Source: Phycisphaerae bacterium (lineage in GTDB: Bacteria > Planctomycetota > Phycisphaerae > SM23-33). Taken from it: DNA of 39,603 nucleotides. Below, piece by piece: positions 2,086 through 39,120 of this stretch. Under the pieces are notes generated by a model, which saw nothing but the letters and a program-made list of their open reading frames with translations, was not told where the DNA came from and made no database searches. A program made the translations under genes and the position numbers. The stretch lies in assembly GCA_021108335.1 (NCBI GenBank), contig JAIORC010000106.1, forward strand, positions 1 through 39,603, written 5' to 3'. Each line of letters starts with the position of its first letter. Positions within the stretch are counted from its first letter, which is position 1.

Positions 2086-4269
2086 ATGGCGAATGATATG
2101 GAAGATTTGCAACTTATTGCGACAACGACAGCCGGCCTTGAGGCGTGCGTCAAGCGGGAGCTTCTGGAATTGGGCTTCCCCGACGTGAGGGTTTATTCGC
2201 CCGGGCGTATTCTTTTCCGGGCTGGGCTTGAGGGCCTGGTGCGTGCGAACCTGTGGCTGCGGACGGCGGAGCGGGTTCTGTTGGTGATCGGCTCATTCGA
2301 CGCCAGCGACTTCGGCGAGCTGTTCGACCGCACCCGCGAATTACCCTGGCAGCAGTGGATTCCCGCCGACGGGAAATTCCCCGTCCAAGGCCGCAGCCAC
2401 AAAAGCCAGCTATCCTCCGTGCCCGCCTGCCAGAAAATCGTCAAGAAGGCAATCGTCGAGAATTTGCTAGCCGCCCACGGGACAAGCGAATTGCCCGAAA
2501 CCGGCGCGACGTACTCCGTCGAAATCGCGATACGCGAAGATGTCGCCATGCTCACCATCGACACGTCCGGTGCCGGCCTGCACAAACGCGGATACCGCGC
2601 CGCAGCCGGTCCTGCCCCGCTCAAAGAGACCCTCGCCGCGGCTATGGTGCAACTGAGTTTCTGGAATCCCGACCGCCCGTTGATCGACCCGTTTTGCGGC
2701 AGCGGTACGATTCCCATCGAGGCTGCGCTGATCGGCAGAAATATCGCACCGGGGCTGAACCGACCTTTCGCAGCCGAAGAGTGGCCCGCGATTCCGAACC
2801 ATCACTGGCAAAACGAGCGCCAGAACGCCCGCGACCTGATCAAGCCTTCCCTGCCGTTGCGGATTATCGGAACCGACATCGAGCCGAAGGCGCTGAGCCT
2901 TTCCAGCCATCACGCGGAGCTTGCGGGGGTCGCCGGCGATATTCATTTTCAGTGCAGCCCGTTCGACGAGTTGACGACCAGCCGCGAGTACGGCTGCGTA
3001 ATCTGCAATCCGCCATATGGCCGCCGGTTCGAAAAAGGCCCGGAGATCGCGGCAATTTACCGGTCGATGCCCGATGTTTTCCGAAGGCTCAAGACATGGT
3101 CGTTCTACGTGCTGACCAGCGTAGACCTGGAGGCGACTCTGGGCCAATCCGCCGACCGTCGCAGGAAGTTGTACAACGGCAGAATCGAGTGTACGTACTA
3201 CCAGTTCCACGGCCCGCGACCTCCGAAAAACTCCGCCATCCTGCAGGAGCATCCTCCACAATCGCCGGAACAAGACGATCAAGCCGAAGAAAAACCGGCA
3301 GCTGCGTTTGGCGGATTGAAAATAAACGCCTCGGCCCAGGTAGACATGTTCGTCAATCGTCTGCGGAAGAACGCCCGGCACCTGCGTCGCTGGCCGGACA
3401 AGGGGATTACCTGCTACCGCCTCTACGACCGCGACATCCCGGAGATTCCCCTCGCGGTGGACATTTACGAAGGCCGGCTGCACATCGCCGAATACGAAAG
3501 GCCCCATGATCGCACGCAAGCCGAGCAGGCCGACTGGATAGACCTGCTGGCGAAAGCTGCCGGCGAAGTGCTCGACATTCCGCGAAAAAATATCTACGTC
3601 AAGCGACGCCAACGCCAGAAGGGAGCTGAGCAGTACCGCAAATTTTCCCAAACCGCCAGCGTCTGCACGGTTCACGAGGGCGGATTGAAGTTCGAGGTAA
3701 ATCTCTCGGACTACCTCGACACCGGCTTGTTTCTGGATCACCGGGTTACCCGCGAGATGGTTCGCAAAGCCTCCCCCGGCAAGCGGATGCTGAACCTCTT
3801 CGCCTACACCGGAGCGTTTTCGGTATACGCAGCCGCCGGCGGGGCAGCAGCGACGAAGACGGTAGACCTCTCGAATACGTATCTCGACTGGGCCGGGCGA
3901 AATCTCCTGGCCAACGGCTACGAAGGCCCGCAACATAAGCTCGTGCGGGCCGACGCGATGAAATTTCTGCGCGAGCATGCGCCGGGTGAACATTATGATA
4001 TCGCGGTAATCGATCCGCCGACGTTTTCCAACAGCAAAGGAGCCCAGGACATCTTCGACGTGCAACGCGATTACCGCGAGTTGCTCCTGACTACGGCAAA
4101 GCTCATGCCAGCCGGCGGCGTGATCTACTTCTCCACGAACTTCCGCAGGTTCAAGCTCGACCCGGATACGCTGGCCGGCCTTGACGTCCGGGAAATTTCC
4201 CGCCAGACCATCCCCGACGATTTCCGCAACAAACGCATCCACCGCTGCTGGCGGATGACCGTACGGTAA
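2086..4269 (+). CDS. rlmKL: Bifunctional 23S rRNA (guanine) methyltransferase RlmK/RlmL (THUMP + two methyltransferase domains)
   Basis: N-terminal LQLIATTTAGLEACVKRELLELGF, FCGSGTIPIEAALIGRNIAPG, CNPPYGRRFEK, C-terminal LFLDHRVTREMV / LNLFAYTGAFSVYAAAGGA / DPPTFSNSK; 727 aa. Confidence 0.93.
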   Translation: MANDMEDLQLIATTTAGLEACVKRELLELGFPDVRVYSPGRILFRAGLEGLVRANLWLRTAERVLLVIGSFDASDFGELFDRTRELPWQQWIPADGKFPVQGRSHKSQLSSVPACQKIVKKAIVENLLAAHGTSELPETGATYSVEIAIREDVAMLTIDTSGAGLHKRGYRAAAGPAPLKETLAAAMVQLSFWNPDRPLIDPFCGSGTIPIEAALIGRNIAPGLNRPFAAEEWPAIPNHHWQNERQNARDLIKPSLPLRIIGTDIEPKALSLSSHHAELAGVAGDIHFQCSPFDELTTSREYGCVICNPPYGRRFEKGPEIAAIYRSMPDVFRRLKTWSFYVLTSVDLEATLGQSADRRRKLYNGRIECTYYQFHGPRPPKNSAILQEHPPQSPEQDDQAEEKPAAAFGGLKINASAQVDMFVNRLRKNARHLRRWPDKGITCYRLYDRDIPEIPLAVDIYEGRLHIAEYERPHDRTQAEQADWIDLLAKAAGEVLDIPRKNIYVKRRQRQKGAEQYRKFSQTASVCTVHEGGLKFEVNLSDYLDTGLFLDHRVTREMVRKASPGKRMLNLFAYTGAFSVYAAAGGAAATKTVDLSNTYLDWAGRNLLANGYEGPQHKLVRADAMKFLREHAPGEHYDIAVIDPPTFSNSKGAQDIFDVQRDYRELLLTTAKLMPAGGVIYFSTNFRRFKLDPDTLAGLDVREISRQTIPDDFRNKRIHRCWRMTVR

Positions 4270-4300: not shown

Positions 4301-4661
4301 TTGGGTGGCATGGCTTGCTTGCAAGCCATGTGTTTTCGATTTCCCACGATGTCGGGTGGCATGGTCAGCGGCAAAGCCGATGGCCATGAAAGATAGATAC
4401 ACGATGGCAGATAGCCTCAGTTTCTGTTTGCAAAAACATAACGCATTGGGTGGCATGGCGACACCGAAGGGGTCGCCATGAAGGATGTCGCAGAAATTGT
4501 GAATCGATCTTTCATGGCTATCCCGCAAAAAACGCGGGCTAACCATGCCACCCGACATCGTGGGAAATTGTACAAGCTTGCCCCAAGGGAGTTACAAACT
4601 TGTGCCACCCGCCTGTATCATTGGACCCGTATTCGCGGCGGCCTGGGAAGGCCGCCGCGCT
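4301..4661. repeat. Modular palindromic repeat locus R1 (composite, nested)
   Basis: Contains CATGGCTTGCTTGCAAGCCATG, outer 23-nt perfect inverted arms 4343-4365/4542-4564, GGCGACACCGAAGGGGTCGCC, CCCGCaaaaaaCGCGGG-type hairpin, and CGCGGCGGCCTGGGAAGGCCGCCGCGCT. Confidence 0.9.
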
Positions 4662-4755: not shown

Positions 4756-5649
4756 TTACCGCCGTCGTTTTTGTCGCAGCAGTAGTGGGGCGGCTATTGT
4801 GAGAATTAAGAGCGTCGCCGGTTCGGGCGTGGTTATGATATCTCCGATCTGGTCATCGTACCAGCTCAGGTCGGCGGCGTAGGAGCGGTTGCCGTACACG
4901 GCTGTGTCATAGGGTTGGCCGCTGTGTATGCTCCTGGCCATCAGCATCCCGCTCAACTCCCAATTGCCGGTGGAACTGTTATAGTAAAACAATCCGCCAC
5001 CGGAATCGCCGTCGACCAACTGCATCTCGTCGTCGCCCTGGCCGCCGTACCGGTCGAAATCCATTCTCAGGGCACGGGTTGAGCCGTAGCCGACATCAAT
5101 GGTACTGGTACCGTCAATGTCATTCTCGCCCCATCGTTTCTCCCTGCCGGCATCGTACTCGAACCCTCGATAGGCGGCTGAACCCTGCTGCTCCTCCCAT
5201 GAACTGTTCCACCAGGTCTGATCGGCTTCGCGATTCCGCCCACAGCCGATGGCTACCACATCCGAACCATTGGACGGCCTGGAACTGCTGATGGTCAAAT
5301 CCACCACGTCGTCGGGAGTTTCCTCGATCCGGAACATGATTATATCGACCAATTCGCCGGGGCTGCCGGGGGCGTGGAGGCGAACCGAACTGCCCGCTAC
5401 CGCCGAATAGTCCGTCCCGCCGAAATTGACCGACCCGGCTCCGACGTGGGCGGCTGTCATTACCCAGTTGTTGCCCAGGTAGACGGCGCTACCGACACCG
5501 CGCTGGCCCACGTTCGCCCAGCCCGGATCCGCAGCCGGGGCCGACGTGTTACCGGTTCCGTCCCCGCCGCGAATAACCACCGCAGCAGCAGGGGCCGCTA
5601 CCAGAAAAATACCCAATAAACCCGTCAAAATCAGTTTGGACGCAGACAT
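4756..5649 (-). CDS. PEP-CTERM sorted trypsin-like serine protease
   Basis: VMTAAHVG, IIMFRI, VDGDSGGGLF catalytic motifs; C-terminal TPEPATLLILTIAAPLLLRQKRRR; N-terminal signal. Confidence 0.82.
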   Translation of the reverse strand: MSASKLILTGLLGIFLVAAPAAAVVIRGGDGTGNTSAPAADPGWANVGQRGVGSAVYLGNNWVMTAAHVGAGSVNFGGTDYSAVAGSSVRLHAPGSPGELVDIIMFRIEETPDDVVDLTISSSRPSNGSDVVAIGCGRNREADQTWWNSSWEEQQGSAAYRGFEYDAGREKRWGENDIDGTSTIDVGYGSTRALRMDFDRYGGQGDDEMQLVDGDSGGGLFYYNSSTGNWELSGMLMARSIHSGQPYDTAVYGNRSYAADLSWYDDQIGDIITTPEPATLLILTIAAPLLLRQKRRR

Positions 5650-6917: not shown

Positions 6918-7152
6918 GGGTGGCATGGCGACACCGCAGGGGTCGCCATGATTGGCCCAGAAAAAAATGTCGGGTGGTCCCCTGGGGAAAAGATAGATAC
7001 ACGACGGCGGATGGTATGTTGGGTGGTCTTGAGGAAGGACGGCGTAGAAATTGTGTATTCATCTTTTCCCCAGGGGACCACCCGACATCGTGGGAAATTG
7101 CGCGCGGTGGCCTTCGCAGGCCACTACGGCACAGGTTATAAACCTGTGCCAC
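6918..7152. repeat. Modular palindromic repeat locus R2 (composite)
   Basis: GGCATGGCGACACCGCAGGGGTCGCCATG at 6922-6950; 36-nt inverted arms 6967-7002/7053-7088 (2 mismatches); GCGCGGTGGCCTTCGCAGGCCACTACGGCACAGGTTATAAACCTGTGCCACC. Confidence 0.9.
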
Positions 7153-36747: not shown

Positions 36748-36830
36748 AAAACGGGAAAAACAGGAACCGGGAACCAGGAACTGGGAACCGGGAAAACGAA
36801 AAACGGGAACACCGGGAACCGGGAAATATT
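36748..36830 (+). repeat. Purine-rich degenerate GGGAACCGGGAA tract upstream of fliL
   Basis: aaaacgggaaaaacaggaaccgggaaccaggaactgggaaccgggaaaacgaaaaacgggaacaccgggaaccgggaaat, beginning right after the motB2 stop codon. Confidence 0.9.
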
Positions 36831-36847
36831 GCATAAGGATATAAATC

Positions 36848-37423
36848 ATGGCGGAAGAAGAAGACAAAACTACGGAAGAATCGCAGGAAGACGAAAAGGA
36901 TTCGCCCAAGGGAAAGTCCAAGGCCTCCAAGGGCGGCGGGGGAATGCTCATGAAGGTGATGATGGGCGTGGTAATCATAGCCCTCGGCGGCGGTGCCGGT
37001 CTTGGTGCGGCGATATTCATGGATGGCGAACCATCGGCAGTCGAGACGGATGAGGACGAAGACGAGGACGATGCGCTGGCTGGCGGCGGGCTTGCGGGCG
37101 ATGAATACGAATATTACGAATTCGAGCCTTTGACCGTCAATCTCAATGTCCAGCAGCAGGATCGATACGTCAGGGCGACGGTGCTGCTGGGGATTACGAA
37201 GAAGAACAACGAGAAGGCCACCGCGCTGCTCGAAAAGAACAAGGTTTTTCTGAAGAACTGGCTGATGACTTACCTTGCCGGCCATACGTTGGACCAGGTC
37301 AAGGGGCGAAAGAACCTCGTGCGGATTCAGCGGGAGATTTGCGAAAGTTTCAACCAGCAGCTCTGGCCGAACAAGAAACCCCGGATCGACCACGTGCTGT
37401 TCAAGGAATTTGCGATCCAGTAA
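36848..37423 (+). CDS. fliL: Flagellar basal body-associated protein FliL
   Basis: Single TM (MGVVIIALGGGAGLGAAIFM), acidic linker, YYEFEPLTVNLNVQQQDRYVRATVLLGI...LMTYLAGHTLDQVKGRKNLVRIQREICESFNQQLWPNKKPRIDHVLFKEFAIQ. Confidence 0.88.
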   Translation: MAEEEDKTTEESQEDEKDSPKGKSKASKGGGGMLMKVMMGVVIIALGGGAGLGAAIFMDGEPSAVETDEDEDEDDALAGGGLAGDEYEYYEFEPLTVNLNVQQQDRYVRATVLLGITKKNNEKATALLEKNKVFLKNWLMTYLAGHTLDQVKGRKNLVRIQREICESFNQQLWPNKKPRIDHVLFKEFAIQ

Positions 37424-37446: not shown

Positions 37447-37527
37447 GGTGGCACAGGTTTGTAACCCCCATGGGGCAAGCCTGCGGCGTTTGCGGGACGT
37501 ATGCACAGGTTGAAAACCTGTGCCACC
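37447..37527. repeat. Repeat locus R10 between fliL and fliM
   Basis: GGTGGCACAGGTTTGTAACCCCCATGGGGCAAGCCTGCGG...GCACAGGTTGAAAACCTGTGCCACC. Confidence 0.9.
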
Positions 37528-38668: not shown

Positions 38669-38703
38669 GGGATGACGGGAAATATTACATAAGGATATAA
38701 ATC

Positions 38704-39120
38704 ATGGCTGAGGAAGAACAGACAACCGAACCGCAGGAGAATGCCGAGGCCGTCGAGACCGAGGCCACCGAGGCTGTCGCCGACAAGTCTGTGGAGGTGC
38801 AGGATGCTCAATTGCCCGAGGGTGCTGCCGGCTCCCAGGGTGCCGGCGGCGGGCAAATTGATATCCTGCTGGACACGACCATGCCCGTGGAGGTACGGCT
38901 GGGCGACGTGGAGCTGGAAGTGCGGGACCTGCTGCAAGTATGCCCGGGGTCGATAATCACGGTGGAAAAGCAGGTCGGCGAGCCGCTGGATATCTACCTC
39001 AAGGGCATCCGTTTCGCGACCGGCCAACTTGTCATCGCCGGCGAGACACTCGGCGTGCGGGTAACGGAAATTTTGCCCAGGCCAAGCGCAGCCCCAGCGG
39101 CGGAACCGGCAGCGGCGTAG
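38704..39120 (+). CDS. fliN: Flagellar motor switch protein FliN
   Basis: IDILLDTTMPVEVRLGDVELEVRDLLQVCPGSIITVEKQVGEPLDIYLKGIRFATGQLVIAGETLGVRVTEIL. Confidence 0.93.
   Translation: MAEEEQTTEPQENAEAVETEATEAVADKSVEVQDAQLPEGAAGSQGAGGGQIDILLDTTMPVEVRLGDVELEVRDLLQVCPGSIITVEKQVGEPLDIYLKGIRFATGQLVIAGETLGVRVTEILPRPSAAPAAEPAAA

Follow-up and report, generated by a model that had tools for sequence, protein, structure and literature searches.

R1 and R2, two composite elements located in a 39,603-nucleotide stretch of Phycisphaerae bacterium DNA (this whole stretch, as analyzed, is called the window here), are in all probability RAYT-linked non-autonomous repeats of the REPIN/BIME kind. The hairpins in their slots are replaceable, and the transposase encoded on L016, a 1.8-kb contig of the same genome, is their likely mobilizer; our own probability for this reading is roughly 0.87. 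The unusual feature of the family is its modularity, that is, hairpins of different families stand in one slot while the flanks on both sides are constant.

The earlier note on this DNA described R1 and R2 as one constant backbone with two variable stem segments, X and X', which change together and stay complementary. The sequences and coordinates quoted for both loci are correct. The arms of R1 (4339-4369 / 4538-4568) are 31 nt long and 97% complementary, those of R2 (6967-7002 / 7053-7088) are 36 nt long and 94% complementary, and both elements reach further out, through ends of the AATTTCCCACGATRTC type, R1 to about 4338-4570 and R2 to a right end at about 7100 (Table 1). The slots of R1 hold hairpins A and B, with an internal D, and those of R2 hold C and C. 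The CATGG outer arm was rightly recognized in R1, but X is really the whole of the 29-nt hairpin A; X' is the 35-nt hairpin B, a different one, and only the outer CATGG and CCATG arms of A and B cross-pair. X of R2 is a self-complementary 11-mer, TCCCCTGGGGA, which is present in both slots. In the internal third slot most copies have GGGTGG-TTTTGAGAAA, and R1 has GGGTGG followed by hairpin D (4454-4480) instead. The fold prediction that the earlier note had proposed gave structures far stronger than shuffled sequences, for R1 as DNA (-78.2 kcal/mol, z -12.7) and as RNA (z -12.9) and for R2 as DNA (-43.3 kcal/mol, z -11.2), and R1 shows two alternative folds, a long hairpin and a clover. Hairpin A alone folds at -11.5 kcal/mol (z -4.6), and palindrome C alone has a stem of only about 4 bp. 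R1 had no match in plasmid and phage collections, and a literature search by hairpin words gave only unrelated chance matches among the matches listed.

Table 1. Features of R1, R2 and adjoining repeats (positions in the window)
Feature	Position	Strand	Remark
R1, read as a complete non-autonomous REPIN/BIME-like element	4338..4570	+	end-hairpin A-scaffold-hairpin B'-end
Outer end module U1 of R1, GATTTCCCACGATGTC	4338..4353	+	conserved block CAATTTCCCACGATRTC 5' of hairpin B
R1 left slot head GGGTGG, REP-like	4354..4359	+	
R1 left slot: hairpin A, 29 nt (X of the earlier note)	4360..4388	+	
R1 scaffold S...S'	4389..4512	+	124 nt against the usual ~79; insert and hairpin D inside
R1 internal third slot: TTGGGTGG and hairpin D replacing TTTTGAGAAA	4446..4480	+	
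R1 right slot: hairpin B, 35 nt (X' of the earlier note)	4513..4547	-	
R1 right head CCACCC and outer end GACATCGTGGGAAATTG	4548..4570	-	
Hairpin F, GGGTGG-headed, adjoining R1	4309..4330	+	
R2 left flank: hairpin D and linker U2 (ATTGGCCCAGAAAAAAATGTC)	6924..6971	+	
R2	6972..7100	+	GGGTGG-C-scaffold-C'-CCACCC-U1'
R2 left slot: palindrome C (TCCCCTGGGGA)	6978..6988	+	
R2 scaffold, 78 nt	6989..7066	+	
R2 right slot: palindrome C	7067..7077	-	
Hairpin H adjoining R2	7130..7148	-	family H also flanks RAYT in leuS

The scaffold is indeed common to R1 and R2, and the limitation to two loci, which the earlier note had named as a ground for abandoning its idea, was not found. The scaffold 16-mer AAAGATAGATACACGA occurs in 114 places of the 3.78-Mb genome (up to 2 mismatches) and its reversed control in 0, so the copies are not a matter of chance and not restricted to R1 and R2. 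The copies studied come from 81 loci of this genome (0.98 Mb together), which were picked mostly for holding copies, and the counts from them describe a non-random sample. About 90 of the sampled copies show the constant backbone with exchangeable stem segments. The general copy reads outer end (often AATTTCCCACGATRTC, U1)-GGGTGG-left hairpin-AAAGATAGATACACRAYGG...TTGGGTGGTTTTGAGAAAGG...GAAATTGTGAATCGATCTTT-right hairpin-CCACCC-outer end; left slots carry hairpin A, E, C or D and right slots B, C or D. Every slot hairpin is self-complementary, most pair with themselves, and most recur at many other sites beside other sequence (A 60 and B 55 times in the sampled loci). The head is GGGTGG on A, B, C, D, F and H, and GGGTGC on E, G and some copies of C. 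No empty left or right slot, with the head abutting the scaffold, occurred in the sampled loci. An open reading frame spans 18 of 59 copies with 150 nt on each side, counting potential frames only, so an extragenic position, as expected of REPs, may not apply to every copy. Apart from three single matches with 2 mismatches, the scaffold is missing from 149 relatives, none of them of the same genus. As for hairpin D, among the 35 family members searched it is confined to the genome of the window except for one perfect copy in the relative G025 (L139, contig C54:123915-123946).

The connection with a transposase is provided by an intact element of 730 bp at L016:233-962, whose order is U1-GGGTGG-B-AAAGATAGACACACAATTTC-RAYT ORF (183 aa)-CATTGTGTGTCTATCTTT-A'-CCACCC-U1'. 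Its ends match the ends of R1 at 70/78 and 63/73 aligned positions, which makes non-autonomous derivatives of it (REPINs) the best reading of R1 and R2. The encoded protein scores over the cut-off of NCBIfam NF047646 REP_Tyr_transpos (83.5 bits vs 80) and slightly below that of Pfam Y1_Tnp (22.4 vs 23). With a profile of 11 relatives, the top solved relative was E. coli TnpAREP 4er8 (3.6e-11); H59-x-H61 and Y138, the tyrosine at the catalytic position, are invariant in the 11 relatives and W116/Q117 are invariant or nearly so. The L016 RAYT thus has the features of a REPtron: it is a Y1 HUH transposase of the REP-associated group, and inverted REP-type hairpins (B, A) which are repeated in the genome flank it. 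What speaks against the derivation from a RAYT is the head, which is GGGTGG or GGGTGC and not the canonical GTAG; on the wider pattern GT[AG]G, GGGTGG includes GTGG, and GGGTGC, as on E, G and some C, does not fit. The short stem of palindrome C on its own also counts against it. Further, the two ends of the L016 element carry different hairpins (B and A), but in most of the other RAYT elements inspected the two hairpins are near-identical.

Four further RAYTs are present in the genome with hairpin families of their own, namely G (L094), K (L095), E (L141/L154) and H (L153), and the five RAYTs in all adjoin five hairpin families (A/B, G, E, H, K). Of 299 genomes of the class, 108, the source genome included, contain relatives of the L016 protein (E 1e-10 or better), and a GTDB scan with the same protein gave a single distant locus at 28% identity. 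Inverted hairpins headed GGTG/GGGTG lie on both sides in 25 of 28 RAYT loci inspected, against 0 of 1400 shuffled flanks; across genomes the sequence of the RAYT hairpin varies and the head is kept. The RAYT hairpin of one relative belongs to a 36-member family in that genome, and a second genome contains 18 similar hairpins. The H-flanked RAYT (L153:2998-5898, minus strand, contig C213) is fused in frame to leucyl-tRNA synthetase in a 966-aa frame, with NF047646 at residues 67-197, the LeuRS editing domain at 250-389 and then the rest of leuS; the contig stops at the H repeats and so shows leuS without its N-terminal part, and a mis-join is possible. Hairpin H (GGTGGCACAGGTTTGTAACCTGTG) occurs in 13 places of the window, from 7130 to 37522, and in more than 100 copies each in this genome and in the relative G023.

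Within constant flanks the hairpin in the slot differs between copies. Between linker U3 and scaffold S stand hairpins A (9 copies), C (2), D (4) and E (13), between linker U2 and the same scaffold A (17), C (5) and E (1), and between U1 and scaffold S' B (33) and C (14). There are 38 pairs of copies, overlapping and so not independent events, in which the hairpin family differs while the upstream 16 nt and the downstream 40 nt are each at most 2 nt apart; R2 forms such pairs with L027 and L043, the upstream 16 nt being identical and the downstream 40 nt having 1 difference. That every slot change is one-sided, by a crossover moving all upstream DNA, was considered and rejected, because U2 and U3 each precede several hairpins followed by the same scaffold. 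Hairpin E of the left slot belongs to a different RAYT of this genome (L141/L154), which means that exchange crosses REP families. The scaffold subfamily agrees with the slot type for 26.7 of 39 nearest neighbours, where 17.1 are expected, so the slots are mostly inherited and occasionally switched.

The part of the earlier note that does not survive is the tracking of X by X'. In the 54 copies with both slots readable, complementarity is exact in 3, each with one palindrome in both slots; 4 have one hairpin family in both slots, all of them C/C; and 22 have outer arms complementary over at most 1 nt, as in the combinations E/B, A/C and C/B. The independence of X and X', which that note had accepted in advance as evidence to the contrary, is thus largely what the 54 copies show. 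Pairing is nevertheless commoner than under random re-pairing, with a mean outer complementary run of 4.06 nt vs 2.75 permuted (p 0.0002) and 3 exact matches vs 0.7 permuted (p 0.015), and the excess comes mostly from A with B, both ending in CATGG/CCATG, and from C with C. Co-variation is not the rule, and the residual association can reflect shared descent; since the copies are related by descent, the excess of matching outer arms is no evidence of selection.

A 15-nt palindrome, CYTGCCCCNNGGGGG, interrupts at least six repeat types that have uninterrupted versions elsewhere, its hosts being A|S, B|S', H, I, K, F, F2-like and C-like hairpins and one tandem repeat. Palindromes of the form CCCC-W-GGGG are enriched (162 vs about 20). 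For 38 entries, some of them overlapping matches of a single site, the joined flanks occur uninterrupted elsewhere, and 30 of these inserts are exactly 15 nt; in the control, random 15-nt cuts near repeats gave 3 matches in 3000. The anchor C[CT]TGCCCCNNGGGG has 40 sites, 18 of them with empty versions. In this genome the exact 15-mer pattern has 76 occurrences; four species of one related genus have 4-14 each, and outside this genome and that genus there are 0-4. Small dispersed repeats (SDRs) of cyanobacteria are very short palindromes that break up other repeats. The 15-nt insert is like them in being a short palindrome inside other repeats, but it is of unrelated sequence and, at 15 nt, smaller. 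SDRs are named in PMC3116915. One copy of CYTGCCCCNNGGGGG lies in the window at 37465-37479 (minus strand), and its left neighbour is usually GG genome-wide. In the same part of the window a 51-nt stretch at ORF starts is duplicated (36820-36870 / 38676-38726, 88% identity), each copy lying close to GGGAAC-type tandem repeats.

Several other explanations bear on these results. Selection may keep a long folded RNA or DNA (a terminator, an mRNA stabilizer or a gyrase site), with compensatory changes pairing X and X'. The strong predicted folds of both elements, the position of R1 between convergent genes (2086-4269, plus strand, and 4756-5649, minus strand) and the slight excess of matching arms over random pairing agree with this; yet it is improbable in view of the many copies with non-complementary outer arms and the very few exact ones, the 0 matches to Rfam across the whole window, and the presence of each hairpin as a shared repeat at many further sites. 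The strong selection for a long folded structure invoked by the earlier note is also unneeded, as the elements correspond to non-autonomous RAYT copies. Equally improbable is the same note's other idea, inverted-repeat copying, in which palindrome correction within a single copy changed both arms together: C/C copies do share the C variant at both ends, such as TCCCCTAGGGA twice in L022, but this accounts for at most 4 C/C copies and most copies differ between their slots.

A stronger contender, possible though still not the favoured one, is that palindrome C arrived by insertion of the 15-nt mobile palindrome beside A or B, which was then lost, with no exchange at all. Copies with A plus 15 nt and B plus 15 nt exist in L020, L021, L026 and L079, and the 15 nt splits H, I, K, F, F2 and a tandem repeat, each uninterrupted elsewhere; the A-plus-15-mer copies suggest one route for C into the slot. 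However, the C slots are mostly TCCCCTGGGGA and not CCCCCAGGGGG, and hairpins D and E in the slot are left unexplained. An artefact of assembly or binning, by which repeats were mis-joined, might be suspected in a draft of 409 contigs with several copies at contig ends; it is very improbable indeed, as full copies with unique flanks, R1 and R2 included, lie deep in long contigs and the scaffold copies carry distinguishing point changes.

On the reading of R1 and R2 as RAYT-linked repeats, two inverted GGGTGG-headed hairpins (REPs) would surround a short linker that comes from the ends of the RAYT element. Single-stranded DNA of each head-plus-hairpin would be bound by the HUH/Tyr transposase of L016, which would cut and join beside it. 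Several RAYT/REP families with like heads live side by side in this genome, so that hairpins can substitute for one another in the slot while the linkers remain unchanged; the probable route is template switching or gene conversion at the shared heads, or else RAYT-catalysed strand exchange. The homology of the ends to the RAYT element, the inverted hairpins, the link of RAYT and hairpin across the class and the different hairpins in one slot between constant flanks are observed; mobilization in trans, the single-strand mechanism, the route of exchange and the lack of a host function are what we infer. A further idea, which we hold only tentatively, is that in this lineage whole REP hairpins are cassettes: RAYT strand exchange, or template switching provoked by the hairpins, would actively put the hairpin of one family in place of another's and preserve both flanks, and a 15-nt palindrome would insert precisely into the hairpins of many families.

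REPINs are inverted REP pairs with a short spacer, present in many copies as RAYT-tied families, which form long-hairpin and clover folds (PMC3116915, Bertels and Rainey 2011). R1 and R2 share with them the paired inverted REP hairpins, the short spacer, the many dispersed copies, the alternative folds and the end homology to a RAYT of the same genome, but differ in the head (GGGTGG/GGGTGC, not GTAG), in having several hairpin families per scaffold and in their longer ends (U1). BIMEs are mosaics of alternating inverted REPs and linkers (PMC2817692, PMC8266576), as is the family of R1 and R2; unlike in BIMEs, the linkers here are common to eight or more types of hairpin, of which some have a RAYT of their own. 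In TIRtrons, RAYT genes lie between longer inverted repeats with a common TIR motif, GGGGWSAS (PMC3733652, 2013); the L016 element likewise has a RAYT gene with longer flanking inverted repeats, but with REP-like-headed hairpins inside them. Comparable too are the REP-SLS composites, which in Pseudomonas number in the hundreds and join degenerate GTAG-1 units to unrelated stem-loops (PMC3733652). The TnpAY1 subclasses described in 2018 (PMC6006769) have the HuH, WQ and YIHxNP motifs, as this RAYT does (D/E-H-V-H, FWQ, YIHANP), but none is listed there with exactly this motif set and GGGTGS hairpins; class 3, which occurs in Planctomycetes, differs in its Y motif and carries a CnGA foot. The 2018 scheme permits GTGG heads and does not permit GGGTGC. 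A change of GTAG to GTGG shifted the cleavage by one TnpAREP to CC sites (PMC8266576), so the head may select the cut site in the elements of this genome too.

R1 and R2 are apparently known in kind, as RAYT-linked repeats, but unusually modular. This genome bears on the diversification of REPs and on the recognition between RAYT and REP, in that several RAYT families with like heads coexist in it and their hairpins stand in identical flanks. Such natural substrates, differing in the hairpin alone, make directly testable what head and stem each contribute to recognition, and likewise the route of REP replacement.
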